Both the position numbers and the translations under genes were made by a program. The notes under the pieces were generated by a model. It was not told the origin of the DNA, searched no databases, and was given only the letters and a program-made list of their open reading frames with translations. From a virus: 64,000 nucleotides of DNA. The DNA lies in the IMG/VR virus record IMGVR_UViG_3300036770_003984, positions 1 through 64,000 of that record; one strand, 5' to 3'. This document shows positions 8,291-46,620 of this stretch, one piece after another; positions within the stretch are counted from its first letter, which is position 1; the number at the start of each line of letters is the position of its first letter.

Positions 8291-8294
8291 AATT

Positions 8295-9005: not shown

Positions 9006-9598
9006 AAGATTTAATTGGTTTATATGAACAAGCCTTAAAATTACAAGAATATATAGATAGTCAAGAATCTGAAGATATTGACTATGACCAACTCTTCAAA
9101 GAGTTTGGTTTGGATATGAAAGAAATTGAACAGGAAATGATGGAAAATAAAACCAAATTACCACTTAATTATACAAAATTAAATTCTGATGTTATTGACC
9201 CATTTTATAATTATGAAAGTGATTCAGGATTTGATTTATACTCAACAGAAGATATAACAATTAAACCCTTTGGACGTGCCTTAATACCAACTGGATTATC
9301 ATTTGACATTAAAGATGGTTATGAAATACAAGTTAGGTCTAAAAGTGGATTGGCTATTAATCAAGGATTATTTGTTTTAAATTCCCCTGGAACTGTTGAT
9401 AGTGGATATTTGGGAGAAGTTAAAGTTATTCTATTTAACACGAATTCAGAACCATTTACAATAACTAAAGGAATGAAAGTAGCACAAGCTGTTTTATGTC
9501 CTGTTGTTGGGGGTAAATGGGTCGAATTAATAAACACAGAATCTCTACCAAAAAAAGATAGAGGTGATAATGGATTTGGAAGCACAGGAATTATATGA
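9002..9598 (+). CDS. dut: dUTP diphosphatase (trimeric dUTPase)
   Basis: 198 residues. The dUTPase motifs are all present: I SDSGFDLYS (about 73), II RSKSGLA (about 111), III GTVDSGYLGEVKV (about 130, with the substrate Tyr), IV near KGMKVAQAV, and V RGDNGFGSTG (C-terminal arm). It hydrolyses dUTP to dUMP, keeping uracil out of DNA and feeding dTMP synthesis. An acidic N-terminal extension of about 50 residues (LQEYIDSQESEDIDYDQLF) is longer than in the minimal enzyme and of unknown use. ATGA overlaps both neighbours. Confidence 0.93.
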   Translation: MKDLIGLYEQALKLQEYIDSQESEDIDYDQLFKEFGLDMKEIEQEMMENKTKLPLNYTKLNSDVIDPFYNYESDSGFDLYSTEDITIKPFGRALIPTGLSFDIKDGYEIQVRSKSGLAINQGLFVLNSPGTVDSGYLGEVKVILFNTNSEPFTITKGMKVAQAVLCPVVGGKWVELINTESLPKKDRGDNGFGSTGII

Positions 9599-11473: not shown

Positions 11474-12216
11474 AAAAACCTATCATATACGCATACTTTT
11501 TATGTTATAATGAAGCAACAATTCTACCTCATCTTTTAAAATATTATTTAACTTTTTGTGATAAAGTTTTTATATTAGATAATGGGTCAACTGACGATAG
11601 TATAAAAATAGTAAATTCATTCCCAAATACTGAAGTAATTAGATTTAATTCTAATGGTGAATTTAGAGATGATGTTCATATACAAATAAAAAATAACATT
11701 TGGAAAAATCATAAAAATGATGTTGATTATGTTATACTTGGGGATGCTGATGAATTTTTATATCATAATAATATAGTTGATTTCTTGACTGAAAAATTTA
11801 ATCAGGGGTATACTATTTTTAAACCATTTGGGTATCATATGGTAGGTGATGTTGATTTAGAATTAAGTGACAATGATAATATTTTTGAAAAAATTAAAGA
11901 TGGTATTAGAACACCAGTACTTGATAAAATGATGATATTTGATTGTAAAAAAATCAGAGAAATTAATTACTCTTATGGTTGTCACTTTGCTAACCCACAA
12001 GGTGAAGTTAAATTATATAATGGTGAAGACTTAAAAATGGTACATTATAAATTTTTAGGAGTTAAAAATTATGTATATAGAAATAGTATGAGACGAGAAC
12101 GTTTAAGTACATTTAACAAACAAAATGGACTTGGTACATATTATTTGTATTCTGATGATGAAAATGTGAAAGATTATATGGATCATTTTAATAAAAGAAC
12201 TAAAATACTTGATTAA
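11449..12216 (+). CDS. Glycosyltransferase family 2 (Glyco_tranf_2_4 type)
   Basis: 255 residues. YAYFLCYNEATILPHLLKYY, then DKVFILDNGSTDDS (about 37-50), then DYVILGDADEFL (about 95), the DxD-type acidic motif of GT-A enzymes that look after 'you-are-here' core synthesis in LPS. Late HCxFANPQGEV-like region and a Lys/Arg-rich end (YRNSMRRERLSTF) match the acceptor side. Start is inside the end of the previous gene, and the stop TAATG joins the next. Confidence 0.85.
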   Translation: MEKNTTNLKKPIIYAYFLCYNEATILPHLLKYYLTFCDKVFILDNGSTDDSIKIVNSFPNTEVIRFNSNGEFRDDVHIQIKNNIWKNHKNDVDYVILGDADEFLYHNNIVDFLTEKFNQGYTIFKPFGYHMVGDVDLELSDNDNIFEKIKDGIRTPVLDKMMIFDCKKIREINYSYGCHFANPQGEVKLYNGEDLKMVHYKFLGVKNYVYRNSMRRERLSTFNKQNGLGTYYLYSDDENVKDYMDHFNKRTKILD

Positions 12217-12926
12217 TGATAATTTTAACAACTTTTTACAACGTTGGAAACTACATTGAAAGGTGTATTCTCTCAATTAGAAATCAATCTTTAAAAGATT
12301 TCAAATGTTACCTTATTGATGATATGTCAACAGACTCTTCAGTATCTAAAATAAGACCATTAATAAAAAAAGATAAAAGATTTATCTTAATTAAGAATAC
12401 TGAAAAAAAATATAAAACAAAAAATTATGTTGACATATTATCTAATGTTGACATAAGTGACGATGAGATTGTTATTGAGTTGGATGGTGATGATTTTTTT
12501 GCTAATGATAAAGTTTTAGAAAAAGTTAATGAAGTATATAAAGACCAAAATGTATGGATAACAAATGGTAGTTTTATATATTCATCAGGTCAAAGGGGAT
12601 TTTCTTCACCACAAGTTAATTTTGATACATTAAGAACTGATAGATTTACAGCAAGTCATTTAAGAACTTGGAAAACATTTTTATGGAGAAAAATTAAAGA
12701 TGAAGACCATAGAGACAATAATGGAAATTATTTTAGATTAAATGCTGATTTGGCTTATATGTTACCTATGTTAGAAATGGCTGGGAGTTTACACTATAAA
12801 TTTATACCTGATTTAATGGTGGTTTATAACGAACAAAACCCATTAAATGACCATAAAGTTGATATGAGTTTAGTTAATAGTTGTGCAATTGAAATAAGAA
12901 GTAGAAAAAAATACGATAGGTTATGA
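12216..12926 (+). CDS. Glycosyltransferase family 2
   Basis: 236 residues, GT-A fold: ILTTFYNVGNYIERCILSIR, KCYLIDDMSTDSS (about 30-42), then VIELDGDDFF (about 89-98) as the metal-binding DxD motif, followed by KVNEVYKDQNVWITNGSF. No membrane segments, so cytoplasmic. The sugar and acceptor cannot be read from the sequence. Joined by ATGA to the fucosyltransferase downstream. Confidence 0.85.
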   Translation: MIILTTFYNVGNYIERCILSIRNQSLKDFKCYLIDDMSTDSSVSKIRPLIKKDKRFILIKNTEKKYKTKNYVDILSNVDISDDEIVIELDGDDFFANDKVLEKVNEVYKDQNVWITNGSFIYSSGQRGFSSPQVNFDTLRTDRFTASHLRTWKTFLWRKIKDEDHRDNNGNYFRLNADLAYMLPMLEMAGSLHYKFIPDLMVVYNEQNPLNDHKVDMSLVNSCAIEIRSRKKYDRL

Positions 12927-13699
12927 TAACAACATTTTTACAAGGTGGATTAGGTAATCAAATATTTCAAATTATGGCGGCAATAAGTCATAGTAAAAAA
13001 ATTAATACTGATTGTTATTTTGATTTTTCAAAGTCTAATGTTGAGACTCAAGGTCAAAGAGCAAATAAATATGCTGATAATCTATTTAAAAACTTAAATA
13101 ATACTATTATTAACTTTAATAATCTACAAAGATACATTGAACCTAGATTTAGTTTTACTCCATTACCAATTATTGATAATGTCTGTTTGATAGGTAGTTT
13201 TCAATCTGAAAAATATTTTGACAACATAAAAAATGAAATTTATGATTTATTTTATTTTGATGAAAATAAAATGAGTCAAATACAAAATTACATAAATGAA
13301 AAAACAGGTGGTGATTTAGTTACATCTCTTCATATAAGAAGAGGTGATTATCTTAGAAAACCAAACTTCCATCCAACTCAGGATTTAAATTATTATGTTA
13401 AAGCTATGGAAATTACAAATACCAAAAAATACATAGTAGTTTCTGATGACATACAATGGTGTAAAGAAAATTTTATTGGTGATAAATTTATTTTTTCAGA
13501 TTTTACTGATGAAATTGACGATTTAATGTTGATTATGAATTGTAATCACCATATTATTGCAAATAGTAGTTTTAGTTGGTGGGGAGCTTATTTGTGTAAA
13601 AATCCAAATAAAATAGTTGTTGCACCTAAATTGTGGTTTGGTCTACAAGGTCCTCAAGATACTGAGGACATTTATATAAATAATTGGATAAAAATATAA
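12923..13699 (+). CDS. Alpha-1,2-fucosyltransferase-like glycosyltransferase (GT11)
   Basis: 258 residues and an almost textbook GT11 protein: the GDP-fucose glycine loop QGGLGNQIFQIMAA (residues 7-20), IGSFQSEKYF (about 88), the HIRRGDYLRK motif (about 134), and SSFSWWGAYL (about 217). GT11 enzymes move fucose from GDP-fucose to a galactose 2-OH. Length is slightly short of bacterial relatives but no motif is missing. This is the only gene of the island whose sugar can be guessed; no GDP-fucose synthesis genes lie in this window, so the donor must come from the host or elsewhere in the phage. Confidence 0.9.
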   Translation: MITTFLQGGLGNQIFQIMAAISHSKKINTDCYFDFSKSNVETQGQRANKYADNLFKNLNNTIINFNNLQRYIEPRFSFTPLPIIDNVCLIGSFQSEKYFDNIKNEIYDLFYFDENKMSQIQNYINEKTGGDLVTSLHIRRGDYLRKPNFHPTQDLNYYVKAMEITNTKKYIVVSDDIQWCKENFIGDKFIFSDFTDEIDDLMLIMNCNHHIIANSSFSWWGAYLCKNPNKIVVAPKLWFGLQGPQDTEDIYINNWIKI

Positions 13700-13703
13700 A
13701 AAT

Positions 13704-14327
13704 ATGTTATTAAATTTTGACCAACTTATAAAAAAATATGATTTAAAAATTAAAGGTATTATTCATATTGGTGCTCACTATGGAGATGAATATTACCTAT
13801 ATGAAAAGAACAATGTTAAAAATTTAATTTTTTTTGAAGCTTCACCGATTAATTTTGAAGTCTTAAAAGAAAGAATTAATGATAAAGCAAACTTAGTGAA
13901 TTATGCGTTAGGTAATGAAAATAAAAAAGTCATTCTAAATATTGAGACAAATAATAAAGGTATGTCTAATTCAATCTTGAAGCCTGGTATTCATTTAACT
14001 CAATATCCACATATAAAATTTGAATCTACAATTGAGGTTGATATGGTAAGATTGGATGACTATATAACACAAAATAATATTAACATAGAGAATTATAATT
14101 TTATTAATATTGATGTTCAAGGATATGAGTTGGAAGTTTTTAAAGGTGGTGAAAAAGTTCTAGAAAGTATTGATTATATTATTACCGAAGTTAATAGAGA
14201 TTATGTCTATGTTGATAACGTTTTAGTTACCGATTTAGATGAATATTTAAATAAATTTGGTTTTGAAAGAGTTGAGACATCTTGGGATGGTTATACTTGG
14301 GGAGACGCTTTTTATATAAAAAAATGA
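13704..14327 (+). CDS. FkbM family methyltransferase
   Basis: 207 residues. SAM-binding motif I GIIHIGAHYGDEYYLYEK (about 18), acidic strand FFEASP (about 46), motif NYALGNENKKV, then FINIDVQGYELEVFKGG (about 134), the FkbM signature. FkbM enzymes O-methylate sugars or small molecules. Within the glycan island it probably caps a sugar; a second FkbM gene lies at 15153. The stop overlaps the next ATG (ATGA). Confidence 0.88.
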   Translation: MLLNFDQLIKKYDLKIKGIIHIGAHYGDEYYLYEKNNVKNLIFFEASPINFEVLKERINDKANLVNYALGNENKKVILNIETNNKGMSNSILKPGIHLTQYPHIKFESTIEVDMVRLDDYITQNNINIENYNFINIDVQGYELEVFKGGEKVLESIDYIITEVNRDYVYVDNVLVTDLDEYLNKFGFERVETSWDGYTWGDAFYIKK

Positions 14328-15163
14328 TTAATTTATATTTTAATAATAGTGGAAGAGGTCCTGGAAAAGTTTATAGTAATTTAATTAAAGGCCTAGAATT
14401 ATTGAACATTGATTATACAATCAATCAAAATATTAATAATGGATGGAAAAATTTAATCCTACAATCTCATTGGGCATTAAATTCTGAAAAAATAAATGAT
14501 GCTATTATTGGGCCAAATATTTGTGTTTTGCCAATTGACAATCAAGAAGTTATGTCCCAAAAATATAAAAAAATTATTGTACCATCAGAATGGGTACAAA
14601 AATTATATGAAAGATGGTTACCAAAAGAAAAAATAATTGTTTGGCCAGTTGGTATTGATACGGATTATTTTAAAGATTTTTCAAATGAACATAAGACAAA
14701 TGATTGTCTAATATATTTTAAAAGACGAGATGAAAGTGAGTTAAATTTAGTAATTTCATTTTTAAAATCAATTAATCAAACTTATCAAATAGTTAAATAT
14801 GGTAGTTATTCTGAGTCTGATTTTTTAAACCATTTAAAAAGTTCTAAATATGGTATTGTCATTAATAAATGTGAATCACAAGGTATTGCAATCCAAGAAA
14901 TGATGAGTACGAATTTACCATTATTAGTTTGGGATACACCAATATGGGATGATAGAGGTGAAACTTTTAAAATAGAAGCAACATCAGTTCCTTATTGGGA
15001 TAGAAGATGTGGGTATAAATTTACAAAATTTGAAGAAATAGACGATATTTTCAATACTTTTATAGAGAAAAAAAATACTTATTCACCAAGACACTTCATT
15101 TTAGAACATTTATCTTTAGAACATAGTGTTAATAATTTAATTAAAGAATTTTATGGATTATAA
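14324..15163 (+). CDS. Glycosyltransferase family 4-like (GT-B)
   Basis: 279 residues from ATG 14324; a longer frame from TTG 14282 runs inside the previous gene and is not needed. GT-B plan: FNNSGRGPGKVYSNLIKGL loop, KIIVPSEWVQKLYERW (about 85), VWPVGIDTDYF (about 106), then the donor site with CESQGIAIQEMMSTNLP (about 185), the E-x7-E motif of GT4 retaining enzymes, and VWDTPIWDDRG. Overlaps both neighbours. Confidence 0.82.
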   Translation: MINLYFNNSGRGPGKVYSNLIKGLELLNIDYTINQNINNGWKNLILQSHWALNSEKINDAIIGPNICVLPIDNQEVMSQKYKKIIVPSEWVQKLYERWLPKEKIIVWPVGIDTDYFKDFSNEHKTNDCLIYFKRRDESELNLVISFLKSINQTYQIVKYGSYSESDFLNHLKSSKYGIVINKCESQGIAIQEMMSTNLPLLVWDTPIWDDRGETFKIEATSVPYWDRRCGYKFTKFEEIDDIFNTFIEKKNTYSPRHFILEHLSLEHSVNNLIKEFYGL

Positions 15164-15821
15164 TGAATTTTTAAAATACTATACAATAGAAACTTTATCA
15201 TCAATTGATGTAAACATACATGAAGTGATGTTAAATAAATTTATTTCATTGCAAAAAGAAAAAAAAGAATTTATTTTTTTTGATATAGGTTGTAATGGAG
15301 GTAGTTTTATTAAAACGATTAAAAATAAAGGTATTAATGCTAAAATTCATGCTTTTGAACCACACCCATACCTATTCAAATATTTAACTGAAACTTATCC
15401 TAACGATAAGATAAATTGTGAATGTGTAACAAATATTGATGGAAAATGTAATATAAATATACCATTATATTCTGTTGGTTTAAGTAGTATAATAAAAAGA
15501 CCTATATTTGAGAGTTTAAAAACTACTCAAGAAATTAAATCACTAGAGTGTAATGCCATAAGATTGGATTCATATTGTAAAAAAAATGATATTAGACAAA
15601 TTGATTTTATTAAAATAGATGTTGAAGGTGCTGAGTATTTTGTGTTTGAAGGGGCACAAAAGTTATTAAGTGAAAATAAAATTTTATGTGGACAATTTGA
15701 AGTAGGTATTGAAGAAAGTGGTCATACTACTAATGATATATTAAATATGTTAATAAAATATGGTTATGAAGTTGATAAAACTTTAAAATCTGATTACTTT
15801 TTTTTTTTAAAAAATAAATAA
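15153..15821 (+). CDS. FkbM family methyltransferase
   Basis: 222 residues. FFDIGCNGGSFIKTIKNKG (motif I, about 43), HAFEPHPYLFKYL (about 68), VGLSSI, LDSYCKKNDIRQIDFIKIDV (about 130-149), EGAEYFVFEGAQKLL. Same family as 13704 but only distantly similar, so it is unlikely to be a recent duplicate. Probably methylates a sugar of the same glycan. Overlaps the previous gene by 11 bases and shares TAATG with the next. Confidence 0.87.
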   Translation: MDYNEFLKYYTIETLSSIDVNIHEVMLNKFISLQKEKKEFIFFDIGCNGGSFIKTIKNKGINAKIHAFEPHPYLFKYLTETYPNDKINCECVTNIDGKCNINIPLYSVGLSSIIKRPIFESLKTTQEIKSLECNAIRLDSYCKKNDIRQIDFIKIDVEGAEYFVFEGAQKLLSENKILCGQFEVGIEESGHTTNDILNMLIKYGYEVDKTLKSDYFFFLKNK

Positions 15822-16435
15822 TGGATAATAACATCATAATAACAATCTCAACAGCAATAATAGACGATAATATTACAAAAGAACAAAGAATTTTAGAATA
15901 TGAAGAGTGTTTTAATATAATTAAAGGTTTTGGGTATTTTGATTTCTATATTGTAGAAACTGTTTTATCCTATTCTGACTTTCTAGAAAAACATTCCAAA
16001 AATGTTTTTTATACAAACGTTAATGGGAAGTATAACAATAGAGGTACTAACTATGTAAATTCATTTAAAAAGTTTTTAAATGAATCTAAATTTAATGATG
16101 ATGATATTATAGTTCATATAACTGGTAGATACCCATTAACTGATGATTCTTTTTTTAAGAATTGTTTAAAATTGGAAAAGGAAAAAATTGGTTGTTTTAA
16201 AAAAGATAGACACAATCAATGTTATTTATTTCTATATGGAATGAGATTTAAGGAGTTAAAAGGGTTATTAAATAGTATAAACGTAGATTATATGGAACGT
16301 AATATGATTAACTTAGAAATGTTATTTTCACAAAACATACCAGAAGATACTATTATGTTATTAGATAATTTAGGAATAATAGGTAGACAAAGTAATGAAA
16401 AAAATCCAAATGTTTATGGAAAATTAAAATTTTAA
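15821..16435 (+). CDS. Hypothetical protein, possible glycosyltransferase
   Basis: 204 residues. The beginning (IIITISTAIIDDNITKEQRI) and the middle (DDDIIVHITGRYPLTDDSF, about 93-111) look like a GT-A-like Rossmann core in which the acidic motif is replaced by TGRYPL, as in some poorly characterised capsule enzymes. No signal peptide. The guess rests mainly on the island context, and the residue evidence is weak. Confidence 0.5.
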   Translation: MDNNIIITISTAIIDDNITKEQRILEYEECFNIIKGFGYFDFYIVETVLSYSDFLEKHSKNVFYTNVNGKYNNRGTNYVNSFKKFLNESKFNDDDIIVHITGRYPLTDDSFFKNCLKLEKEKIGCFKKDRHNQCYLFLYGMRFKELKGLLNSINVDYMERNMINLEMLFSQNIPEDTIMLLDNLGIIGRQSNEKNPNVYGKLKF

Positions 16436-16438
16436 ATT

Positions 16439-17098
16439 ATGAGTGAAATATTAACATTAAATGAAATAGGTCTTAAAAATAAAAGTGACAAATCATCTGA
16501 ATACCATAATTATCTAAAATTATATGATAAGTATTTTTCTATTTATAGAAATAAAAATATAAATTTTTTAGAAATCGGTATTTTATTTGGTGATTCTCTA
16601 AAAATATTTGATGAATATTTTATAAATGGAAATATAACTGCAATTGATATTGAAGATAAATCATATCTAAGTAAAAGTAATATACAAATTATTAAAGGTG
16701 ACCAATCTGATATAAATTTATTAAATCGTTTTGAGGATAATAAATATGATATTATTTTAGATGATGGCTCTCACAATATGAGTCACCAACAAATATCTTT
16801 AGGTGTTCTTTTTAAAAAATTAAAAAGTGGTGGTCTTTACATCATTGAAGATTTACACACTAGTTGTTATGAATATAGAGAAAATATAATGTACAATAAT
16901 AAATTATTTGGACTAACAAATGATAATAGTACTATTGATTTTCTAAATGGTATAAAAAATAAAACGGATAAAAATAAATATTTAACCACAAAAGAATATG
17001 AGTATCTATGTGAAAATATTGAAAGTATTGAAATTTTTGAAACTAGTAGAAAGAATAACAATGAATTTTCAATCACATCAATAATAAAGAAAAAATAA
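16439..17098 (+). CDS. SAM-dependent methyltransferase (CmcI/macrocin-OMT-like)
   Basis: 219 residues. NFLEIGILFGDSLKIFDEYF (motif I, about 42), TAIDIEDKSYL, IIKGDQSD, then YDIILDDGSHNMSHQQIS (about 103), GGLYIIEDLHTSCYE (about 134). The DDGSH plus IIEDLHTS pair is characteristic of sugar O-methyltransferases of the cephalosporin/macrocin type, which use a metal. Likely another sugar-capping enzyme. Confidence 0.82.
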   Translation: MSEILTLNEIGLKNKSDKSSEYHNYLKLYDKYFSIYRNKNINFLEIGILFGDSLKIFDEYFINGNITAIDIEDKSYLSKSNIQIIKGDQSDINLLNRFEDNKYDIILDDGSHNMSHQQISLGVLFKKLKSGGLYIIEDLHTSCYEYRENIMYNNKLFGLTNDNSTIDFLNGIKNKTDKNKYLTTKEYEYLCENIESIEIFETSRKNNNEFSITSIIKKK

Positions 17099-17106
17099 TA
17101 TACGAT

Positions 17107-17697
17107 ATGCACAAAGAACAAATAAATTATTTAAATAAAATAAAGGATAAATTTCCAGCAGCGTTTAAAAATAAAAAAGTTTTAGATATTGGGTCATTCA
17201 ATGTTAATGGTAATGAAAAACCATGGTTTGAAGATTGTGATTTTATAGGTTTGGATTTATTACCAGGACTTGGTGTAGATGTTGTTTGCCCAGCAAATGA
17301 ATATGATGCCCCAAACAACACTTTTGATACAATCATTTCATGTGAATGTTGGGAACACAATCCATATTACAAAGAAAGTATAATGAACGCTATTAGAATG
17401 TTAAAATCTGGAGGTTATTTTATTTGGACGTGCGCAACAACTGGTAGACCAATTCATGGTACAAAAACACAAGACGAAATAGATAAAAAAAATAATAAAA
17501 CAGCACAAGGAAATAGTACCAATAATTGGATTACTATGCCAAATGTAAAAAAAGAGGGTTGGGATAATGAGTATTACAAAAATTTAACTGAACAAGATAT
17601 TCGTGAATTTTGTGATGTTGACTCTATTTTTTCATCATATAGTTTTGAAATTGAAACTAATCATTGTGATTTATATTTTTGGGGAATAAAAAAATAA
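17107..17697 (+). CDS. Class I SAM-dependent methyltransferase
   Basis: 196 residues, Methyltransf_11 type: KVLDIGSFNVNG (motif I, about 24), FIGLDLLPG, NTFDTIISCECWEHNPYY (motif IV, about 75), AIRMLKSGGYFIWTCAT (about 98). The His-containing WEHNP replaces the more usual E-H-L/F signature. Substrate unknown; last methyltransferase of the island. Confidence 0.82.
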   Translation: MHKEQINYLNKIKDKFPAAFKNKKVLDIGSFNVNGNEKPWFEDCDFIGLDLLPGLGVDVVCPANEYDAPNNTFDTIISCECWEHNPYYKESIMNAIRMLKSGGYFIWTCATTGRPIHGTKTQDEIDKKNNKTAQGNSTNNWITMPNVKKEGWDNEYYKNLTEQDIREFCDVDSIFSSYSFEIETNHCDLYFWGIKK

Positions 17698-27810: not shown

Positions 27811-28281
27811 ATGAGAATCACAGAATCACAAATCAACAAACTCGTTAAAAAAATAGTTAACGAAAAAGATTATGGAAAAGTACAAAACTATATGTTTTTC
27901 AGTAATCTAGAACAAATGATAAGACAAGCACAATTGTTACTAGAATTAGACCCAATGGAAGTAGAGAAAATTCTTCAAGGTGGTCACGATTGGGCTGATG
28001 ACCATATCGCAACAGCAAAAGAAAACTTAGACCAAGTGTTTGACTTTCTAATGAACGAAACTCAATATTCTGACGAATTCTATGATGAAGAAGAAGATGT
28101 GGTTATGATGGAAGGAAAAAAGAAAACTGGAACAAAATTATGTTCAAGAGGATATAATGCAGCTAAGAGTAAATTTAAAGTTTTTCCCAGTGCTTATAGT
28201 AATGGTTACGGAGTACAAGTATGTAAAGGTGACAAACCTGGATTAGATGGAAAAAAACGTTGTTCACCACCTTATTGTTAA
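27811..28281 (+). CDS. Putative internal virion protein with capsid-targeting leader
   Basis: 156 residues. The first 18 (MRITESQINKLVKKIVNE) form an amphipathic helix ending in V-N-E, the same plan as the leaders at 33602 and 34862, which I read as capsid-targeting peptides. An acidic helix follows (about 60-100, FDFLMNETQYSDEFYDEEED), then a cysteine-bearing basic C-terminus (LCSRGYNAAKSKFKVFPSAY, VQVCKGDKPGL, KRCSPPYC) seen in related phage proteins of unknown function. Confidence 0.6.
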   Translation: MRITESQINKLVKKIVNEKDYGKVQNYMFFSNLEQMIRQAQLLLELDPMEVEKILQGGHDWADDHIATAKENLDQVFDFLMNETQYSDEFYDEEEDVVMMEGKKKTGTKLCSRGYNAAKSKFKVFPSAYSNGYGVQVCKGDKPGLDGKKRCSPPYC

Positions 28282-28288
28282 AATATAA

Positions 28289-28315
28289 AAGAGGACATTA
28301 AGTCCTCTTTTTTTA
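28289..28315. terminator. Bidirectional terminator between convergent genes
   Basis: AAGAGGAC (28289-28296) pairs with GTCCTCTT (28302-28309), flanked by A-rich and T-rich tracts. Serves the rightward tail operon and the leftward peptidase gene. Confidence 0.85.
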
Positions 28316-30886
28316 TATCTTATGTAAAATTGATTTTGAATTAATACTTTTCATTTCACCCTTGTTATTTCTACATACAATGTTATAGAAATAAACACCT
28401 GATGAAAATTCACTCATACCATCCCATTTCTCAGAAACAAACTTACCAAAACCATCATTGTTATTTAATTTGATTGTTTTAAGAATAGTACCTTTAATAT
28501 CAAACACCTCAATCAACAATTCATCAGCCTCAGAAAATTCATTACCAAGATTCACAACAAATGTTGTATAATCTTTAATTGGGTTTGGATAGTTATAAAT
28601 CTCATTTTTCATTTCAATTTTATTAACTGATGATAACAAAATTTGTTGTGGTATTGTATCTTCATAAATATTTTGATTGTGTACGATTCTTAAAGCAGGA
28701 TCTCCGTGATATATTAAATAATCTGCAGCCAATTCATTTAATAATCCATTATTTGATAAACTACTCATAGCCATTTTTATTAATTCACCATTTGTTTTAT
28801 TTTCAGTTCCAAGTAATCTGTAAAATTCTGTAGTAAAAGAATTAACTGAGAATAAAGAAATTGGTTTTGAAAATCCAAGGAATGCTGAAACTCCTCTGTT
28901 TGGACTTAGAACTAAGGTTTCACTTAAATCTTGTGTGGAGTTAAAAATATTTCCACTTGAGCAACTTAGAGACATAAAAAGGGGGTATTTGTATTTGTTA
29001 TTATATCTTTCGATTTTATTTAATTCAAAATCAATACTAGTTTCAGTTGCATGACCTAAATAAGTCATAATAGATACTCCTTTATTAAGTGTTGAATTTA
29101 AAGTTGAATCATTATTAGAATTTGTAAGATTAAAGTTTTCTTTATAAAACGAATGAACATTAGCATTAAATTCACTATTTTCCAAATTATCACCCAATGT
29201 GTTTATAACATTTGCAAACATTTGTTGTTCCGTTACATTAACACCACCACTTAAATGTAATACGTTTTTATCCCAAGAATTATCAGATGAATTTTTATAA
29301 GTTTCCATCTCAATAATTTTATTCATATAAACTCTAAACTCATCACCATTTGTTACGGATAATCTACCAACTGAAAGACTTGGTGTTGTTTGTCCTTTTT
29401 TTGTAAACAACATATTATCAGACCCAGGATAACCAAATGTTGGAATTTGAACATCGTATGTACTGAAATTTCTAACTTGATTATATTCCTTTGCTTTACC
29501 AATTAAAAATACGTGTTTTGGATTATCCCAATGAGTTAAAATATAATCTGAAAAGTTTCTAATTGATTGTGGGTGCAAATCTATACCATAACCAAATTGG
29601 TCAAAAATTTCTTGGATATTAACAATAATTGGGTTGTGTTCTGATGAACGATATGCCGCCCACTCAATAAGAGGATTGTCACCATATACATCATTAAACA
29701 TTTTACTATGTGCAATCATTACATAATCACCATTATAGTTTTGGTAGTTAGTGAAATTAACCTTATCAACTTTACCAACCAATTTAGTATTAGATAAAGT
29801 AATTAACACCAATTCTCTATCAACAGATGATGCTGGTAAATCAGTTAATACTTTTTGAGTATTAACATCATAAAAACAATGTATTCTAACTCCATTTGTA
29901 ATATCAAAAAGATAAACTTGATTTGACATCCCATTAAAATTATCTATTTCCAAGAATTTTCTTCCACCAGCACCAACATTAAATTGATATACACTTTTAC
30001 CTTCAAAGTTAAAACTTCTTGGGTATGTTACTTTAACATAACTGATTGAATGTTTGTCTAAACTATTATCCAAACCTCTAACTGAAAGTGTTGTTGTTTG
30101 TTGAAGACTTTGAAGTTCAATTTGAGTTGTGATAATTGTGTCGCCATAATACAACATATTAAGTATTGGTTGATTAGATATTGAGTATTCAACATTGTGA
30201 TTAAAACCTTTTGAATACATTCTAACCTCAACACTTGGTTTAATTGTGGTTTGTATAAAGTATGGTGTGTTTAATGTAATTGATTGATTTGTTGATAATT
30301 GACTACCATATCCTTCACCATATTCAAATGAACTTCTTGAGAAATCAATTCCACTAATTGAATATTCTTTCCCTACTGACCATATTAAGTTGGGGAGAAC
30401 CACAACCTCGGAAATGAAATAATTTTCTCTCTGAGGGAGATTTGTGAGGTTTGATGATATGTTTTGATATCTTTTTCCATTGATTGAATTATCCCAAGTT
30501 AAGAAATAAGAAGATGAATCTGTAATAAGACTATATTTAGGATTAAAGTGTCCGTTATTATATAGTTCTTTATCTAAAGTAGATTTATTTTTTTGACCCC
30601 AAAATTCAATGTAGTCAACTGAATCACCATTCATTTTAACATTGATTGGAATTTCTTGACCATTTAAAAATAATTGGATATTTGTTTGTGTTAATTTTGA
30701 TAAATCAACACCTGACATTGTTAGATGTGATGATGGAATACGATAAAGTCCATCCTCGGAAATTTTGAATTTGTAATATGTGTTTTGATAGTTTATCCAT
30801 TCATTACCGAATTTACCATCAGACATTTGTCCAAAAGAAAAACCACCAATTAGAAGAAAGATTAAAGTTAAAAGTATTGTTTTCAT
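28313..30886 (-). CDS. Secreted gingipain-like C25 cysteine peptidase with T9SS sorting domain
   Basis: 857 residues from ATG 30886; an upstream in-frame ATG at 30934 would put 16 residues before the signal peptide. Residues 1-20 are a signal peptide (MKTILLTLIFLLIGGFSFGQ). The C25 core carries the catalytic pair: His in TYLGHATETS (about 611; GHA instead of the usual GHG) and Cys in SLSCSSGNIF (about 642), with IGKAKEYNQVR and VGRLSVTNGDE upstream as in PorU-type C25 enzymes. The last 93 residues are a T9SS sorting tail (NYPNPIKDYTTFVVNLG, VFDIKGTILK, SSGVYFYNIV), so it is cargo and not the sortase PorU, which has no tail. Expected on or outside the infected host's surface. Confidence 0.88.
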   Translation of the reverse strand: MKTILLTLIFLLIGGFSFGQMSDGKFGNEWINYQNTYYKFKISEDGLYRIPSSHLTMSGVDLSKLTQTNIQLFLNGQEIPINVKMNGDSVDYIEFWGQKNKSTLDKELYNNGHFNPKYSLITDSSSYFLTWDNSINGKRYQNISSNLTNLPQRENYFISEVVVLPNLIWSVGKEYSISGIDFSRSSFEYGEGYGSQLSTNQSITLNTPYFIQTTIKPSVEVRMYSKGFNHNVEYSISNQPILNMLYYGDTIITTQIELQSLQQTTTLSVRGLDNSLDKHSISYVKVTYPRSFNFEGKSVYQFNVGAGGRKFLEIDNFNGMSNQVYLFDITNGVRIHCFYDVNTQKVLTDLPASSVDRELVLITLSNTKLVGKVDKVNFTNYQNYNGDYVMIAHSKMFNDVYGDNPLIEWAAYRSSEHNPIIVNIQEIFDQFGYGIDLHPQSIRNFSDYILTHWDNPKHVFLIGKAKEYNQVRNFSTYDVQIPTFGYPGSDNMLFTKKGQTTPSLSVGRLSVTNGDEFRVYMNKIIEMETYKNSSDNSWDKNVLHLSGGVNVTEQQMFANVINTLGDNLENSEFNANVHSFYKENFNLTNSNNDSTLNSTLNKGVSIMTYLGHATETSIDFELNKIERYNNKYKYPLFMSLSCSSGNIFNSTQDLSETLVLSPNRGVSAFLGFSKPISLFSVNSFTTEFYRLLGTENKTNGELIKMAMSSLSNNGLLNELAADYLIYHGDPALRIVHNQNIYEDTIPQQILLSSVNKIEMKNEIYNYPNPIKDYTTFVVNLGNEFSEADELLIEVFDIKGTILKTIKLNNNDGFGKFVSEKWDGMSEFSSGVYFYNIVCRNNKGEMKSINSKSILHKI

Positions 30887-31515: not shown

Positions 31516-32706
31516 ATGACATGTTGTAATAAAAGAATAATAATTACTGAAGAAGATAGAAAACATATTTTAGGTATGTATGGGGTTATTCTAGAAACGG
31601 ATAAAATAAAACCCAATGAACAAGAAAAAGTAATTAAATTAGACCAACTTTATGCTAATGGTTATTATTCTATAACTAATAATAATAAAGCTAAATTTAA
31701 TGCAATTTTAGATGCCCAACTATTACCTACATTAAAACAATATCCTAATGTTAAATTAAATATTGATGTTAGGGCAGGTGAATCTATTTCTCCTAATTAT
31801 GACTATGAGTTAAAGGATAATAAACTTAAACCTGATATGTATCTTGCAAATCTTAGAAGAGATAAAATGATTGCATACCTAAATCAATATCTACAAGATT
31901 CTGGTTTAAAAAACTTACCAAATGTTAGTAATGTGCCAAATACACCAGGAACAAATGTTTGGAGAGGTAGGTCAGGTAAAGCAGATAATGGTATTGATAG
32001 ATTTGTTGAGGTTGTAATAGATTTAAATATTCCAGGTTTATGTTTAACTAATCTAAAAATTGAAGTTATTTATGACAAAAGTCCAGCAACGGCAGAATTT
32101 CCATGTAGAGGAAAACATAAATGTGATAGAGCAATATTTAATGTAAAATTAAATGGGGTTGTAATAGGTGAGGCTAATTTAAATAATGAGAATGATGGTG
32201 GAAGTAGAAACGCGACATTAATAGTTACTTCAGAACAAGCAACAACAATAGGTGGTAATTCTAATCAATTAGTATTAGCATTGGAAGGAATTCATGAAAA
32301 ACCCCACGATGATGTTCCTGAAGTAAGAATAACTGACCCTAAAGGTAATGTTATATTTCATGGATGTTGTGCTATTTTATCAGTTGGTAAAGGTCAAGAT
32401 AGGACTCTATTAATGTTAGACAAATGTGGAACAAAAGTTTTATCAGCATCAAAAGCGGTTGGTGTTGGTGAACCAACAAAGGATCAACTTGGTAGACCTA
32501 CATATGTTATTGGTACTGAAATGCAACTTCGTGACGATATAATACCAATTCTTAGAAAGACTAAAAGTATAACTGAAAATAACGATGGTACTATTACTTT
32601 TATTCAAAATTATTCAACAACTAAATTTAGATTTAATGCGGGTCTAACTATAAATCCACAAAAACCAATTATAATATCACCAAATGGTGAAGTCTCACAA
32701 AGATAA
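31516..32706 (+). CDS. Putative virion protein with capsid-targeting-like leader and OmpA-like region
   Basis: 396 residues. The N-terminus (RIIITEEDRKHILGMYGVIL, then E-T) resembles the leader peptides of 33602-36620. Residues about 45-120 recall an OmpA-like fold (GYYSITNNNKAKFNAILDAQ, KLNIDVRAGESISPNYDY, LANLRRDKMIAYLNQYLQ), where OmpA domains have a TDxxG and N-x2-L-S-x2-RA core, but the match is partial. A cysteine-bearing beta region follows (CLTNLKIEVIY, FPCRGKHKCDR, FHGCCAIL). Driven by a late-type element and followed by a terminator. Confidence 0.55.
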   Translation: MTCCNKRIIITEEDRKHILGMYGVILETDKIKPNEQEKVIKLDQLYANGYYSITNNNKAKFNAILDAQLLPTLKQYPNVKLNIDVRAGESISPNYDYELKDNKLKPDMYLANLRRDKMIAYLNQYLQDSGLKNLPNVSNVPNTPGTNVWRGRSGKADNGIDRFVEVVIDLNIPGLCLTNLKIEVIYDKSPATAEFPCRGKHKCDRAIFNVKLNGVVIGEANLNNENDGGSRNATLIVTSEQATTIGGNSNQLVLALEGIHEKPHDDVPEVRITDPKGNVIFHGCCAILSVGKGQDRTLLMLDKCGTKVLSASKAVGVGEPTKDQLGRPTYVIGTEMQLRDDIIPILRKTKSITENNDGTITFIQNYSTTKFRFNAGLTINPQKPIIISPNGEVSQR

Positions 32707-33183: not shown

Positions 33184-33597
33184 ATGAAAAAATTTATTAA
33201 AAGGTTTTTAAAACGTAGTTACGTAAAGTGGGTTCTATTCAATAGAAAAATGAGTAACCCAGACTACAATAAAGTCTCTGAGACACAAAAAAAATGTATG
33301 TCAATTGCAAGATTATTGATTCTACATCCAGATTCTCATTTTCGACTTACTTTCTTAAGTAAAAAAAGATATATTATAAATAAAACTTTGGGTTTATTTC
33401 TAATATTGGATGGAAAATTATTGAGTATAACAAACCATGTTCATCATCATGATATTATTATAAGTGATAGAAATTATGATAGGTTTACCAAAATGTATGA
33501 TGAAAAAGTTGAAACAATACGTCAAAAAGATGAGGATGAAATTATGTCACAAATTGTTCACTCATTGGATGTAATACTTAATAAGATAAAAAGTTAA
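33184..33597 (+). CDS. Hypothetical basic protein
   Basis: 137 residues, strongly basic N-terminus (MKKFIKRFLKRSYVKWVLF), then a mixed region with an HVHHHD cluster (about 80) and a helical end (DEIMSQIVHSLDVILNKIKS). No family recognised. Follows the exported gene by 18 bases, so probably shares its promoter. Convergent with the gene at 33602. Confidence 0.6.
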   Translation: MKKFIKRFLKRSYVKWVLFNRKMSNPDYNKVSETQKKCMSIARLLILHPDSHFRLTFLSKKRYIINKTLGLFLILDGKLLSITNHVHHHDIIISDRNYDRFTKMYDEKVETIRQKDEDEIMSQIVHSLDVILNKIKS

Positions 33598-36740: not shown

Positions 36741-38582
36741 CTATCTCAATTCTTGTAAGTCAAATGTTCTAACACCATCAACTGTAATTCTCGCATAGAA
36801 GCGGTTGTTCACCATTTTTTTAGCGTATCTAGTCATAATACCCTTGATAGGAGTAAAGTTGAATGGATTATACATTGTTGGAGTTAATTGAAGTGGAACA
36901 TACGGAGCGTAGATGTAACCAGTATCAAGAAGTGAAGTACCTTTATGTCCGATTAACACTTGGTTAGGTGGGAAGTAAGGGTCACGATATACTTGGTATC
37001 TACCTGCTAATGTACCTACTCTTTCAATACCCATATTGTATTGGTCTTGCTCAGGAGAAGCATTTGATACGTGGAAGTATTCCAAGTCATCAAAGATTGC
37101 AGAAACCTCAGAAGAAACAACAATCCAGTTAGCACCACCTCTAAGAGTTGATTTGTGGATTTGAGCTGAAAGTTGGTTGATAGCTGTGATAAGAGTTTGG
37201 TTCCAGTCTTTTTGAGTGTAAGAAGTGTTATTTTGTAATCTTCTCCATCCGTTGTAGTCCCATCTCAAGTTCCAAGCCGCACCTTTTCTAAGGTCACGTA
37301 GGATTTCTCTATCGATTTCAGCTGCAACTTGTTCAGAAAGAAGGGCAGTTAATTCAGCCTCAGCATCAATGTTATGGAATGCTGCAACGTCTTGAGCAAG
37401 TTCAGGAGACCATTGAGCTCTAAGTTTTCTTTCAGTTACAGAAACAGTTACTGATTCAAGGTCAAAAGAAACTTCACCAATTTTATCTTCAAATTCAAGT
37501 TCTTCGTATCTTCTATATACAACAGTAAATGAAGACGCTGAAGAAGCTGAGAAAATTGTAGTACCAGTGTAACCATCTAAAGATGAAGCGTTACAATCAG
37601 CACATACTGGACAAGATAAGTCAACCTCAATTAACATACAACCATCTTGGATACAAGTGTCATTATATGTACCACCACCATTTGTTGGCCATAAAGTTGA
37701 TGTTGATTTTGAAGTAGGTTGAACAAGACCTTTACCATATTGTTGAGTTACAACTCTAAACAATAAGTTGGGTAAAGTACTAGTACCAATACCCATAGTA
37801 TCACAAGGAGTAGTACTAGCAGAAATACCACCATTATTTCTAATTACTTTAAGGTCAGATAAGAATGTTTCAGTATCAACTTCAGAACCATCAGGTGCAA
37901 TAAGTTTACCTACACCATCATATGCGAAACCACACACTTTGATTAAAAGTTTTCTAACATTTGGTGTTTCTTCAGTTATTTCTAAAGGAACAACTTGACC
38001 ATTTGACCAAGTCATAGTTGTTGCACTAGCTGTAATTGCTGACCAACGACCTTTAGAATAATCAAATAAACCAGCAGGATTTAAACCAGGTTCAGCACCT
38101 TCATAGAATAAATCATAAAGATTTTTTTGATAAGCATTAGAATCCGTACCATAACCAGCATTTGGGTCACCAGGATAATTACCAGGACTACCTATTGGTG
38201 CATGATGATTACCAGAAAAAGTACCTCCATTAGTGTCACCACTATAACCTTGAATTTTAGGTATAAAGTAGAACAATTTACCGATAGGTAAGTTCATAGC
38301 TTGTACAGATACGATGTCATTTGCTAATAATTTAGAGAATACACGTCTAACGATTGGAAATACAACTGTTTCAAATGAACCAGAACTTCCATCAGATGTT
38401 GCTTCGTTGATTAAGAATGATGCTTGATTTTCATATAATTGTGCAACATTTTCTTTTAGATGACCTCTAAGGCCTTCAAGGAATCCTAATCTATCCCATT
38501 TGTTAATAGTATCTTCTTTGATAACTTTAAGGTGTTTCAAACCAATGTTACCAACAAGACCGCTTTCTAATAATGCTCCCAT
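36741..38582 (-). CDS. Major capsid protein, T4 gp23-like
   Basis: 613 residues, longer than T4 gp23 (521). Residues 1-60 are the pro-region; the predicted protease site is FLINE-ATSDGSSGSF after Glu60, close to the Glu65 cut in T4. HK97-fold signatures follow: FPIVRRVFSKLLANDIVSVQ (about 75), PIGKLFYFIPKIQG, and the C-terminal NRFYARITVDGVRTFDLQEL. An insert at about 300-345 has CPVCADCNASSLDGYTGT, an added domain absent from T4 gp23. Builds the capsid shell. No own promoter element; transcribed with the scaffold. Confidence 0.92.
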   Translation of the reverse strand: MGALLESGLVGNIGLKHLKVIKEDTINKWDRLGFLEGLRGHLKENVAQLYENQASFLINEATSDGSSGSFETVVFPIVRRVFSKLLANDIVSVQAMNLPIGKLFYFIPKIQGYSGDTNGGTFSGNHHAPIGSPGNYPGDPNAGYGTDSNAYQKNLYDLFYEGAEPGLNPAGLFDYSKGRWSAITASATTMTWSNGQVVPLEITEETPNVRKLLIKVCGFAYDGVGKLIAPDGSEVDTETFLSDLKVIRNNGGISASTTPCDTMGIGTSTLPNLLFRVVTQQYGKGLVQPTSKSTSTLWPTNGGGTYNDTCIQDGCMLIEVDLSCPVCADCNASSLDGYTGTTIFSASSASSFTVVYRRYEELEFEDKIGEVSFDLESVTVSVTERKLRAQWSPELAQDVAAFHNIDAEAELTALLSEQVAAEIDREILRDLRKGAAWNLRWDYNGWRRLQNNTSYTQKDWNQTLITAINQLSAQIHKSTLRGGANWIVVSSEVSAIFDDLEYFHVSNASPEQDQYNMGIERVGTLAGRYQVYRDPYFPPNQVLIGHKGTSLLDTGYIYAPYVPLQLTPTMYNPFNFTPIKGIMTRYAKKMVNNRFYARITVDGVRTFDLQELR

Positions 38583-40617: not shown

Positions 40618-41337
40618 TCAATATCCGTATAAAGATAATTTTTTCATTAGTTCTAAAGATTTATTTCCACTTTCTCCAACATTCCTTTCTACTGCCATTT
40701 TCCTATCATCATCTAAATTTTCTTCAAACATATGTTTATCATCTTTGTTTAAGAAAAGATAAGCACCAGGTGTTGATGGTGATGAAACTAAATCAAAACA
40801 TATTAATTCAAAATCATCTTGTACTTCATTTTGTTCTCCAACTTTTTTTAATGAACCAACACCACGAGAAGATATACCAAGAGTAACACCTTGTCTTAAA
40901 TAATTTGCGGCCATATCACCCTTAGTTGATACTATACCTCTTTCGTGGAATCCTGGGGATGTTAACAATTTGAGTTTACCCATTAAAACTGGTCCTTCCC
41001 ACCAAACTTCATTTATAATATGAGATACTCTATCAAGGTCAATTAAAGATGATTCAGGATGATTTAATTCTGATAATGATGTTCCTTTTTGAATCATCTT
41101 TTTATAATTCTCAGCTTCCCTTTTTAATATCTTTTCTGGGTAGATTCTACCATTTCTATTTGGTGTATTGTATTTTTGTAATACAGCATAGAATTCAAAT
41201 GGTTTTGAATGGTCTAACATTTGTTTGGATTCTTGTAACATTTTAGAGTTAAATCCATCTGTTGGGGAAACCCACCCATCATTTTCAATTAAAATACCTC
41301 TACCTAACTCACCAGGGTTTAAAATTTTTAAGCTCAT
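40618..41337 (-). CDS. Prohead core protease, T4 gp21-like (peptidase S77)
   Basis: 239 residues. FEFYAVLQKYNTPNRNGRIY opens the protease fold; the catalytic His is in SELNHPESSLIDLDRVSH (about 95) and the Ser in GISSRGVGSL (about 155), followed by FDLVSSPSTPGAYL. Family S77 enzymes cut scaffold, capsid protein and internal proteins after [L/I]-x-E in the maturing head. This is the expected processor of the leader peptides proposed in this annotation. It has its own late-type element. Confidence 0.88.
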   Translation of the reverse strand: MSLKILNPGELGRGILIENDGWVSPTDGFNSKMLQESKQMLDHSKPFEFYAVLQKYNTPNRNGRIYPEKILKREAENYKKMIQKGTSLSELNHPESSLIDLDRVSHIINEVWWEGPVLMGKLKLLTSPGFHERGIVSTKGDMAANYLRQGVTLGISSRGVGSLKKVGEQNEVQDDFELICFDLVSSPSTPGAYLFLNKDDKHMFEENLDDDRKMAVERNVGESGNKSLELMKKLSLYGY

Positions 41338-42830: not shown

Positions 42831-44642
42831 TCAATCATCTAAAAGTTTTTTCAGATGTACTTCCATTTCACCCAAATAATTTCTTACTTTTGACAAATCA
42901 ATATAAGAATCATCCTCAGTTAATGAATCACTTTCCAATAGAATATTTAAATTATTTTTATTAATTGATTCTGGTGCTAAACCTGGAGGTGGGGGTGATT
43001 CTTCACCTCCAGGAGGTGGTGGTGGCATTCCTCCACTTTCTTCTCCTCCTCCACCGGGTGGTGGTGGTGCTCCACCTTCAGTTGTACCTGACTTAGTTCC
43101 ATAAAGTTTATCAATATTATCAAATAAACCAGTATGTGTTATAATTGTCGCAGTATTTGTTAATTCAGCACCAACAGCCTTTTCAATCCTTTGTTGTTGT
43201 AAATCAAGTTTAATTTCCTCTTCAGAGAATCCCATAATATGTTTCTTAGCCCATGTAACTGATGTTGGTGAAATACCTTCAATTGCCGTAACACATTCTT
43301 TATAAAGTGCGACTTTCTCTTTCCATATATCAATTTTAAGTAAATCAGCCTGACTTGATGGATTTGTCAAACCTAAAGTGAAGTTACCTAACTCATCTTC
43401 AAAACCTAAAAGGAATAAATGTATAATGGCGATTTTATTTAATTCGGCAACCATACATTTTTGTATTCTATTGATTGTTCTAGCAAATCTTATATCAATC
43501 AAAGAAAGATTTTTACCATCACCAACAGGTTCTTCAAAACCTAAGAATGCTTTAGGTACACGTAGAGCGGTTAATAATTTCTTTTGGATATATTCAATAT
43601 CGGCAATTTCACCTAAATTCGCACCACCAGGTAATGTTTCAATTGGCATAGTTTGAGCTGGGTCTCTAACAGGAATAAAATAATCTTGGTCAACAGCCAT
43701 TTGATTAAATCTCATATCAACATTACCAGTCTGAGAATCAACAACTTGACTACGTTTAAACTTATTTGCAACACGTTGTACATAAGCTTCAACATCTTTA
43801 TCATCCATATTTCCAACAAAGACTTTGAACACCCTTCTTTCTGGTGCTCTTGAAGTTCTATATATCAACATTGCATCCTCAGATAATAATAATTGTTTCC
43901 AAATACGTCTTGCCTTTTCCAACATTGATGTACCATATGGAAGTTTTCTATCATCACCAAATAAACGGAAATGAGCAATTTCCCAAGAATTAAACTCCAT
44001 GTCTTTAACTTTCCATTTGAATCTTAAACCTTTGTTTTCAACGGGGTCTTCAACATTTTGTCTACCAGCTTGCGTAGGAGCACCTCGTTCCAAACGTTCA
44101 ATTTCAATGTTTGGTAGTTGCATACAACCAACAATACCTTTTTCTGGATCAAGTTTAAGGTAAACAAAATTATCACCATACTTACAAGTATTTCTTGTCC
44201 ACATTGGTAAGTTTGTGTTAATATCCAAAATATTATTAAATAAATCAGCTAAAATAGATTTAATCCTTTTTGACTCTGAATATATCTGTAACATATTACC
44301 ATTTTGGTCAACAGTTGTTGATTCCTCACCATAAATGTCTAGTGCTGCAGATATTTCTGGTGTATACTCCATAGATTCGTAATCGTAAAATGAGGCCAAT
44401 CTAGTTGGTTCGTAATATACTGCTTGGGTATATAGATTACTTTCAATTTTAGTCCATTGATTAGCTAAATAATATGTTTGTTGAGCTTGTAATAACTCTT
44501 TATCATATTCTTGTTTGGATGTTGTACGTAATAATTCTTTTCTATCAAACTTATATGTTGGATAGTCTTGATTTAAAAGTTCATTAGGTCCGAAGGCTTG
44601 AGATAATCTTTGCCATACGGTATATTTGTTATTATTTTCCAT
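42831..44642 (-). CDS. Portal vertex protein, T4 gp20-like
   Basis: 603 residues; gp20 is 524. Motifs of the family: YYLANQWTKIESNLYTQAVY, EYTPEISAALDIYGEESTTV (about 93), WTRNTCKYGDNFVYLKLDPE, SWEIAHFRLFGDDRKLPYGT (about 219), ALRVPKAFLGFEEPVGDG (about 362). The C-terminal addition (about 515-565) is a Gly/Pro-rich linker (PPPPGGGGEESGGMPPPP) not in T4. The portal forms the dodecameric DNA gate and nucleates the head. The order terminase, portal, core protein, protease, scaffold and capsid protein fits T4. Confidence 0.92.
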   Translation of the reverse strand: MENNNKYTVWQRLSQAFGPNELLNQDYPTYKFDRKELLRTTSKQEYDKELLQAQQTYYLANQWTKIESNLYTQAVYYEPTRLASFYDYESMEYTPEISAALDIYGEESTTVDQNGNMLQIYSESKRIKSILADLFNNILDINTNLPMWTRNTCKYGDNFVYLKLDPEKGIVGCMQLPNIEIERLERGAPTQAGRQNVEDPVENKGLRFKWKVKDMEFNSWEIAHFRLFGDDRKLPYGTSMLEKARRIWKQLLLSEDAMLIYRTSRAPERRVFKVFVGNMDDKDVEAYVQRVANKFKRSQVVDSQTGNVDMRFNQMAVDQDYFIPVRDPAQTMPIETLPGGANLGEIADIEYIQKKLLTALRVPKAFLGFEEPVGDGKNLSLIDIRFARTINRIQKCMVAELNKIAIIHLFLLGFEDELGNFTLGLTNPSSQADLLKIDIWKEKVALYKECVTAIEGISPTSVTWAKKHIMGFSEEEIKLDLQQQRIEKAVGAELTNTATIITHTGLFDNIDKLYGTKSGTTEGGAPPPPGGGGEESGGMPPPPPGGEESPPPPGLAPESINKNNLNILLESDSLTEDDSYIDLSKVRNYLGEMEVHLKKLLDD

Positions 44643-44850: not shown

Positions 44851-46620
44851 TTATCTTCTTTGATTTCCAAATAACCAAGAGTATTTCATATAATCTTCCT
44901 TTGAAACATTTTGATTTCTTTGTTGTAATCTATCATGCCCATATGGTATTACTGGATTAAATTCTAATTGTTTTCCCATATTTTCATTATTACTTACAGC
45001 CCAAGATTCCAACATTGCCTTTGTTTGTTCAGTGACTTTTTCCAAACTGCTGAAAGATGATTCAGCAATATAAGTCGCCATTGCAATTGACATTATTAAG
45101 TCATCGTGTTGTCCCTTTTGGTGGTCTGGTCTTCCATTGACATAAATAAAGGTGTTCATCTCATCAAATAACCTTGAACTATATATCTTAAATTCATGTC
45201 TCATTGCTTCCTCAAATGATGCAATTATCTGAACACGTTTATTATTAAAATTAAGTCCAGGAATTTTATCCAATGCCTTGGGGTCATATTTCCATTTGTT
45301 TGCCAAATCTACCCCATCCACATATAAATTTTTATAACCCAACTCTTGTAACTTCCTTGAGGTTGAAACCCCCATACCACCAGTTATATCTATCACAATA
45401 AAACAATTATACATATTACCCCACTTATAACATATTTCAGCCATTGTATCTGGAGGTAACTTTCCAACATATTCTGCAACTTGTTCTCTTGTATCAAAAT
45501 CAATAATTTGGAATGAACTAAAGTCTTCACTATCCCCTCTACTGACATCCACACCCATAACGTATTTATGTCCCATAATAGGTTCTTTCCATATCCATAG
45601 AGAATTACCTATCATTTTATTTTGGGGTTCTTTAATCATATTTTCTTTAACTCTTTGCATTAAAAGAGAATCAAATACGTTATCACCAGAACCCAAGAAG
45701 TTACACTCTAACTCTTGTGAAACTTTTCTCTTATCATATTTAAGTTTCTTTACCATTCCCTCAAACCAAGATGAACAAGGTTTGTACCCTGAATTCATCA
45801 TTAATTTAAGTTCCTCGTAATTTCTTTCATCAAATGGAATATGTCCCCAACTTATAATATCATTACTACTATATTCTGTTTTATTAAGGAGATAATGAAT
45901 AACATCTTGTGTTTTGACTAAAAATAAATCTTTGGTATATCTTGGGTCTCTAAACCAAAACATCTCAGATATTTTAAAGTCATTCATTCCCCTATTTGCT
46001 TGATTATATATTTCATAATAAATTGGGTCATAACCATTTGGTGTTGACACTACAATAACTTTACCCCCAGTTGATAGTGAGGCCATACAAGCCGCCCAAA
46101 AGTCTGAATCCGCGTCAATAAATGCCGCCTCGTCAAATACTAGGATTGTTGGTGTAAAACCACGTAGAGCATCCTTTGAGGTTGCCACAGCTTTTACTTC
46201 ACATCCATTGTTTGTCTTATAATGTTTTTGTGAATTTTTATCAACAGAAAAATCAATTCCAACCCAACTTGGCCATTGACCAATAAACATTCTTATTTTA
46301 TTTGCCATCTCTTGTGATGTATCTAATTTGTTGGCAATGATTAGAATCTTTTCAGGTTTTGTCTTTTTGGCAAAAGCTATTTTTAATGATACCCAAGCCG
46401 CAGTTACTGTTGATACACCAGCTTGTCTGTACTTTAATGCAATGTTTTCATTGTAATTTTCATAGTCATTAAGTAATGAAATTTGGTCTGGAAATAACTC
46501 TAATGGGACATATTTTGATACAGTATTATCATAGGTTTCCAGATATGTTCTTAACGCGTATGGGGTATCTTTCATACACTTAAGATATTCAATCATTACT
46601 TGTTCTTTTGTTAAACTCAT
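44851..46620 (-). CDS. Large terminase subunit, T4 gp17-like
   Basis: 589 residues (gp17: 610). ATPase: adenine-side YENYNENIALKYRQAGVSTV with a Walker A variant (RQAGVST, about 63), Walker B PTILVFDEAAFID (about 160), and the coupling motif VVSTPNGYDP (about 193). RNase H-like nuclease: GVDVSRGDSEDFS (about 354), VIDITGGMGVS (about 407) and HDDLIMSIAMATYI (about 511). It packages DNA through the portal and cuts it into headfuls. A late-type element precedes it and a terminator lies upstream. Confidence 0.94.
   Translation of the reverse strand: MSLTKEQVMIEYLKCMKDTPYALRTYLETYDNTVSKYVPLELFPDQISLLNDYENYNENIALKYRQAGVSTVTAAWVSLKIAFAKKTKPEKILIIANKLDTSQEMANKIRMFIGQWPSWVGIDFSVDKNSQKHYKTNNGCEVKAVATSKDALRGFTPTILVFDEAAFIDADSDFWAACMASLSTGGKVIVVSTPNGYDPIYYEIYNQANRGMNDFKISEMFWFRDPRYTKDLFLVKTQDVIHYLLNKTEYSSNDIISWGHIPFDERNYEELKLMMNSGYKPCSSWFEGMVKKLKYDKRKVSQELECNFLGSGDNVFDSLLMQRVKENMIKEPQNKMIGNSLWIWKEPIMGHKYVMGVDVSRGDSEDFSSFQIIDFDTREQVAEYVGKLPPDTMAEICYKWGNMYNCFIVIDITGGMGVSTSRKLQELGYKNLYVDGVDLANKWKYDPKALDKIPGLNFNNKRVQIIASFEEAMRHEFKIYSSRLFDEMNTFIYVNGRPDHQKGQHDDLIMSIAMATYIAESSFSSLEKVTEQTKAMLESWAVSNNENMGKQLEFNPVIPYGHDRLQQRNQNVSKEDYMKYSWLFGNQRR

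Follow-up and report, generated by a model that had tools for sequence, protein, structure and literature searches.

Can a bacteriophage encode a component of the secretion machinery through which its host decorates the cell surface? The question is raised by a single long reading frame (positions 28313-30886, minus strand, with its ATG at 30886 and its stop codon at 28313) in the viral record IMGVR_UViG_3300036770_003984, a 128.5 kb sequence of which the first 64 kb are here called the window. A first-pass annotation placed the boundaries of this reading frame correctly and described its 857-residue product as a phage-encoded, gingipain-like C25 peptidase with its own type IX secretion system (T9SS) sorting tail. 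The points at issue are whether the gene belongs to the phage, to which branch of the C25 peptidases its product belongs, what kind of tail it carries and what it might do in infection.

Genomic context of the reading frame

The record is that of a T4-like phage (Caudoviricetes), as seen from matches to PHROGs and Pfam models. A gp23-type major capsid protein (36741-38582; PF07068, E 1.5e-72), a prohead protease (40618-41337; phrog_207, E 3e-42), a portal protein (42831-44642; phrog_213, E 3.5e-67) and a terminase large subunit (44851-46620; phrog_2, E 1.9e-41, and PF03237) are all encoded on the minus strand and lie no more than 20 kb from the gene under study. IMG/VR contains at least 600 relatives of the capsid protein, whose best match among isolates is that of Flavobacterium phage immuto, at 38.7%; immuto and Microcystis phage Mel-JY01 are also among the top isolate records for the terminase. 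Because relatives reach 318 kb the record may be part of a larger genome. The host, deduced through the phage relatives and through the T9SS itself, probably belongs to the Bacteroidota. A bacterial contig mistaken for phage was also considered and was rejected.

The gene occupies a variable slot between two conserved phage genes, at 27811-28281 and 33184-33597, both on the plus strand. Among 90 relatives containing both border genes the gap between them is 55 to 2994 bp long, frequently around 100 bp (55-187 bp in about half of them), as compared with 4903 bp in the window. With core phage genes that are neighbours in relatives flanking it on both sides, and structural genes within 20 kb, the gene is indeed phage-encoded, as had been proposed. 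A strong, bidirectional terminator-like hairpin (28288-28316; AAAGAGGAC-ATTAA-GTCCTCTTTTTTT, -14.4 kcal/mol, z -5.4) separates it from the convergent gene at 27811-28281. The reading frame is intact, and its GC content and codon usage agree with those of the phage.

A short PorU2-type protein

Residues 1-20 (30827-30886) form a putative Sec signal peptide, MKTILLTLIFLLIGGFSFGQ, judged by eye, with the stretch closing in FGQ. Residues 388-734 (28685-29725) constitute a C25 peptidase domain that matches Peptidase_C25 (PF01364) from end to end (1-374 of 374, E 8e-58, 196.9 bits against a cut-off of 23), and contain the catalytic residues His612 (29051-29053, in YLGHA) and Cys642 (28961-28963, in SLSCSSGN). 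Both columns are nearly invariant across 17 PorU2 proteins and line up with the His and Cys of PorU (6ZA2) and gingipain R (1CVR). A T9SS C-terminal domain (CTD) follows at about residues 762-857 (28316-28603), of which residues 766-841 score 26.8 bits with TIGR04183 (NCBIfam), above the curated cut-off of 23; the Pfam model for the T9SS tail falls narrowly below its own (24 versus 27). The signal peptide, the C25 His/Cys region and the T9SS domain read from the sequence in the first-pass annotation are thus all present, with profile matches to both the C25 and the T9SS-CTD families, and the signal peptide and the CTD together are those expected of a T9SS substrate. AlphaFold on a two-row alignment of the protein gave a pLDDT of 32.

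The gingipain-like label, in contrast, does not hold. The protein matches NF052324 (NCBIfam, "putative T9SS sortase PorU2") over model positions 3-769 of 879 with E 1e-164, scoring 550 bits where the cut-off is 450; with PorU (NF033707) it reaches only 167.7 bits, the cut-off there being 420. Among the 43 proteins of a maximum-likelihood tree it falls inside PorU2 and is separated from PorU at 100/100; its neighbours within PorU2 are three sequences, one of them from a Chitinophagales MAG, at a support of 98/94, although the phage branch is long and the exact neighbour is unsure. A 17-row PorU2 profile searched against the PDB matched PorU (6ZA2) with E 1.5e-23 and gingipain with E 1e-10, while phmmer with the phage protein alone matched nothing there. 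The protein shares fold family and dyad with PorU but lies outside the PorU clade, and it has the C25 domain and dyad in common with the gingipains RgpB and Kgp, to which the match is weaker; gingipains, moreover, are cargo, whereas the phage tail is of the component type described below. The closer PorU2/PorU matches and this tail rule out a gingipain-type cargo protease. The motif GHA at the catalytic His, which had been taken as a replacement of a common GHG, is frequent among cellular PorU2 proteins, and a special substitution is likewise ruled out.

Profile and tree place the phage protein in the PorU2 family as a short form, and since NF052324 models only the N-terminal 879 positions we limit the claim to a short PorU2-type protein. 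It shares with the PorU2 of Bacteroidia the N-terminal domain, the C25 domain with its His and Cys, and a family-type CTD, but cellular PorU2 is about 1690 residues long and adjoins PorV2, whereas the phage form has 857 residues, in a record without PorV2. Aligned to a profile of eight long cellular PorU2 sequences, several of them read from an internal start, it covers positions 9-780 and then 1555-1658; the approximately 775 residues in between are absent, and with them most of the C-terminal half of the cellular protein. PorU2 is widespread, scoring above cut-off in 110 of the 149 Bacteroidia genomes sampled. The family is thought to anchor proteins on the host cell surface, and its sortase label is inherited by homology: in the literature searched we found neither a function shown for PorU2, transpeptidase activity included, nor the name itself. 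We also observed a cellular PorU2-like protein (L038:9982-12543) that is similarly short (853 residues) and has a CTD-like end, but is without the catalytic His and Cys.

The C-terminal domain and its companions

The proposal that the protein carries its own sorting tail stands in so far as a T9SS tail is present, but this tail is a better match to the PorU component type than to the tails of cargo. PorU, too, belongs to the CTD proteins, but its CTD is not cleaved off and remains on PorV, from which PorU acts (PMC10202324); a CTD of its own is therefore to be expected in a PorU-type protein. We compared tail profiles made from 11 PorU, 8 PorU2 and 24 generic type-A sequences. With the PorU-CTD profile, to which the phage CTD is most similar, the tail of the PorU2-type protein scores 48.6 and generic type-A tails at most 25.0, although the control is small and its generic tails were picked as strong TIGR04183 matches, such that the case for a PorU/PorU2 component-type tail over a generic cargo tag is good without being final.

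A second protein with a PorU-type CTD is encoded about 22 kb away (4577-6028, plus strand). Behind a signal peptide it carries two PKD_6 domains, a stretch matching positions 1321-1437 of cellular PorU2, and a CTD, and is without C25; scans of viral contigs and phages gave no match to it. Its tail scores 52.5 with the PorU-CTD profile and shares 46% identity with the tail of the PorU2-type protein; with the PorU tail region it scores 42.6 bits, against up to 39 bits for a few further proteins, of cellular origin. The third tagged phage protein, at record position 75326-76663, has in contrast a generic cargo tag, scoring 42.0 with type A and 6.9 with PorU.

In each of the five cellular genomes examined, PorV2 (NF052325, 475-529 bits) is encoded directly upstream of PorU2. 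No PorV-family protein was found in the phage record, in a search whose control recovered five in one cellular genome, and any docking by the phage enzyme would therefore need a barrel supplied by the host.

T9SS-tagged proteins in related phages

The first-pass annotation regarded a T9SS protein in a phage as unusual, and unusual it is, but phage T9SS cargo is not unprecedented, there being one published case. In the accessible text of that report, Cryophage (Bellas et al. 2020, PMC7468147) is described as a phage in which genes encoding T9SS type A sorting domains differ between variants; these are cargo enzymes (endoglucanase, GH39, PA14), and the same text describes no sortase homologue. 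We find that T9SS cargo also recurs in the T4-like clade. Tails above cut-off are present in three of 45 relatives besides the record of the window, and in five of 50 further records, which include the 642-kb metagenomic phage LR756502 and the cultured Flavobacterium phage vB_FspM_immuto (NC_055915). The immuto protein, gp015 (YP_010114427), is a T9SS-tailed exported protein of an isolated T4-like relative, and differs from the PorU2-type protein in being cargo only, without C25; the availability of this phage opens phage T9SS cargo to study now. The gene (L282:3692-4423; NC_055915 12691-13422) is annotated as encoding a cohesin-domain protein and carries Por_Secre_tail.

Envelope genes of other types occur in the same clade. 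In one relative the slot between the two border genes contains a 900-residue TonB-dependent receptor (L075:12900-15602; Plug, CarboxypepD_reg). In a 229-kb relative a row of five genes with probably exported products lies just downstream of the capsid gene (L130:5629-12546), and encodes a T9SS-tailed subtilase (S8) with SprB repeats, a T9SS-tailed SprB-repeat protein and other exported-looking proteins. SprB repeats are repeats of gliding adhesins, here present in a phage.

We found no close relative of the phage PorU2-type gene itself in the collections searched. Neither PorU2 nor C25 was found in the 45 and 50 relative records (about 95), many of which are fragmentary so that the absence weighs little; single-sequence scans of IMG/VR and INPHARED gave no match; and of the 180 pattern matches that a profile of four PorU2 sequences gave in IMG/VR, none was a relative. 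Nor did we find, in the literature searched, a phage homologue of a T9SS sortase component, and a phage-encoded one appears to be new. It would be the first sign of a virus acting at the processing step of the T9SS, and through it PorU2, a paralogue that is common but still uncharacterised, becomes testable in a minimal form of 857 residues.

Possible roles in infection

The explanation that we favour, with a probability of about one half, is that the gene is a captured and shortened PorU2 whose product is exported via the host T9SS and alters the anchoring of proteins at the host surface. It is based on the PorU2 match, the tree, the retained dyad and the occurrence of a component-type CTD in two phage proteins; on the proximity of PorV2 to cellular PorU2 (5/5) in contrast to a phage without PorV; on the envelope genes found in the slots of relatives or near their capsid genes (the TonB receptor, the T9SS-tailed S8 protease and the SprB-repeat proteins); and on an intact reading frame of phage-like GC and codon usage, taken together with the behaviour of PorU, which acts from PorV and retains its CTD (PMC10202324). 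The host gene would have been captured by a T4-like phage of Bacteroidota and reduced to its N-terminal and C25 domains and the component-type CTD. Made during infection, the protein would pass the inner membrane by Sec and be carried across the outer membrane by the host T9SS, with its PorU-type tail then docking on a PorV-family barrel of the host; the likeliest would be PorV2, which shares an operon with cellular PorU2. At the surface it may act as the host's CTD-processing sortase or displace it, such that the balance of anchored and released proteins would shift; the product of 4577-6028, which would dock at the same site, would be displayed together with the type-A cargo from 75326-76663, and the surface proteins of the host altered. 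The most likely benefit to the phage would be to stop superinfection or the adsorption of progeny to debris.

The presence of the PorU2-type protein and two further T9SS-tagged proteins suggests that the phage re-decorates the surface of its host during infection. More tentatively, the three could constitute a T9SS attachment module, in which a PorU2-type sortase, a non-catalytic protein for the same site and a cleavable cargo would seize PorV/PorV2 complexes and rewrite the surface. On this reading the phage would possess a viral sortase with which it subverts a secretion system of its host at the step where substrates are processed.

Catalysis need not be central to such an interference. The PorU2-type protein and the PKD protein of 4577-6028 might act as dominant-negative decoys that fill PorV/PorV2 sites of the host and jam attachment, a possibility in keeping with a docking-type CTD common to both proteins and a catalytic domain in only one, and with the existence of non-catalytic forms such as the short, tailed cellular homologue without His and Cys noted above. 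The phage enzyme nonetheless retains both catalytic residues and the whole of C25, and we consider a decoy rather unlikely. We give a similarly low weight to a secreted C25 protease effector that shaves receptors or other surface proteins and thereby blocks superinfection or aids release: the dyad is intact, and the T9SS-tailed subtilase beside the capsid gene of the 229-kb relative marks surface proteases as a theme of the clade, but the sequence is that of PorU2 and not of a gingipain, with a tail of component type.

It is also conceivable that the gene is a passenger from a slot of gene exchange and has no role in infection. It is known from one phage record, the content of the slot varies greatly and is often missing altogether, and in a close relative (L196) with 82-92% DNA identity on both flanks the place of PorU2 is taken by an HNH-like reading frame, called by eye and without a Pfam match. 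Against this stand the intactness of the 857-residue reading frame, its long branch combined with catalytic residues like those of the host proteins, a composition that fits the phage, a terminator of its own and the partner protein, encoded 22 kb away, that bears the same tail; we regard a passenger as quite improbable. That a bacterial PorU2 was joined into a phage contig during assembly can be dismissed almost entirely, for while a near-identical contig (L043, 99.96% over 2365 bp) ends at window position 31636, about 750 bp before the gene, so that the gene is spanned by one assembly, each flank consists of a phage core gene, the two being adjacent in relatives, so that an artefact would have required two misjoins in exactly the right position, and GC and codon usage suit the phage.

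Other features of the genome

The window contains a run of surface-sugar transferase-like genes (7154-17697), with a glycosyltransferase at 7154-8290 and a family 11 glycosyltransferase at 12923-13699. A tmRNA gene is located at 56924-57304, with the tag GNVINKLSAVGLIRAEEAVVA. The phage also encodes a ClpB-like chaperone (window 52609-54639), DnaK/Hsp70 (L003:12125-13984) and a class II tRNA-synthetase-like protein (L003:14292-15125).

Many of the phage proteins have a common N-terminal leader of the approximate form M(K/R)xIIITE(S/N)(Q/E)xxxL/I. It occurs within the first 40 residues in 12 of 147 reading frames, as compared with 2 of 670 internal segments of 40 residues, and a looser form is present in more. 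Carriers are encoded in the window at 27811-28281 and 31516-32706, and elsewhere in the record at positions 91122-92774, 100803-101189, 102864-103328, 107473-110371, 111131-111595, 114545-117174 and 119414-124551. By analogy with the internal proteins of T4, the leader could be a capsid-targeting sequence that is cut by the prohead protease.
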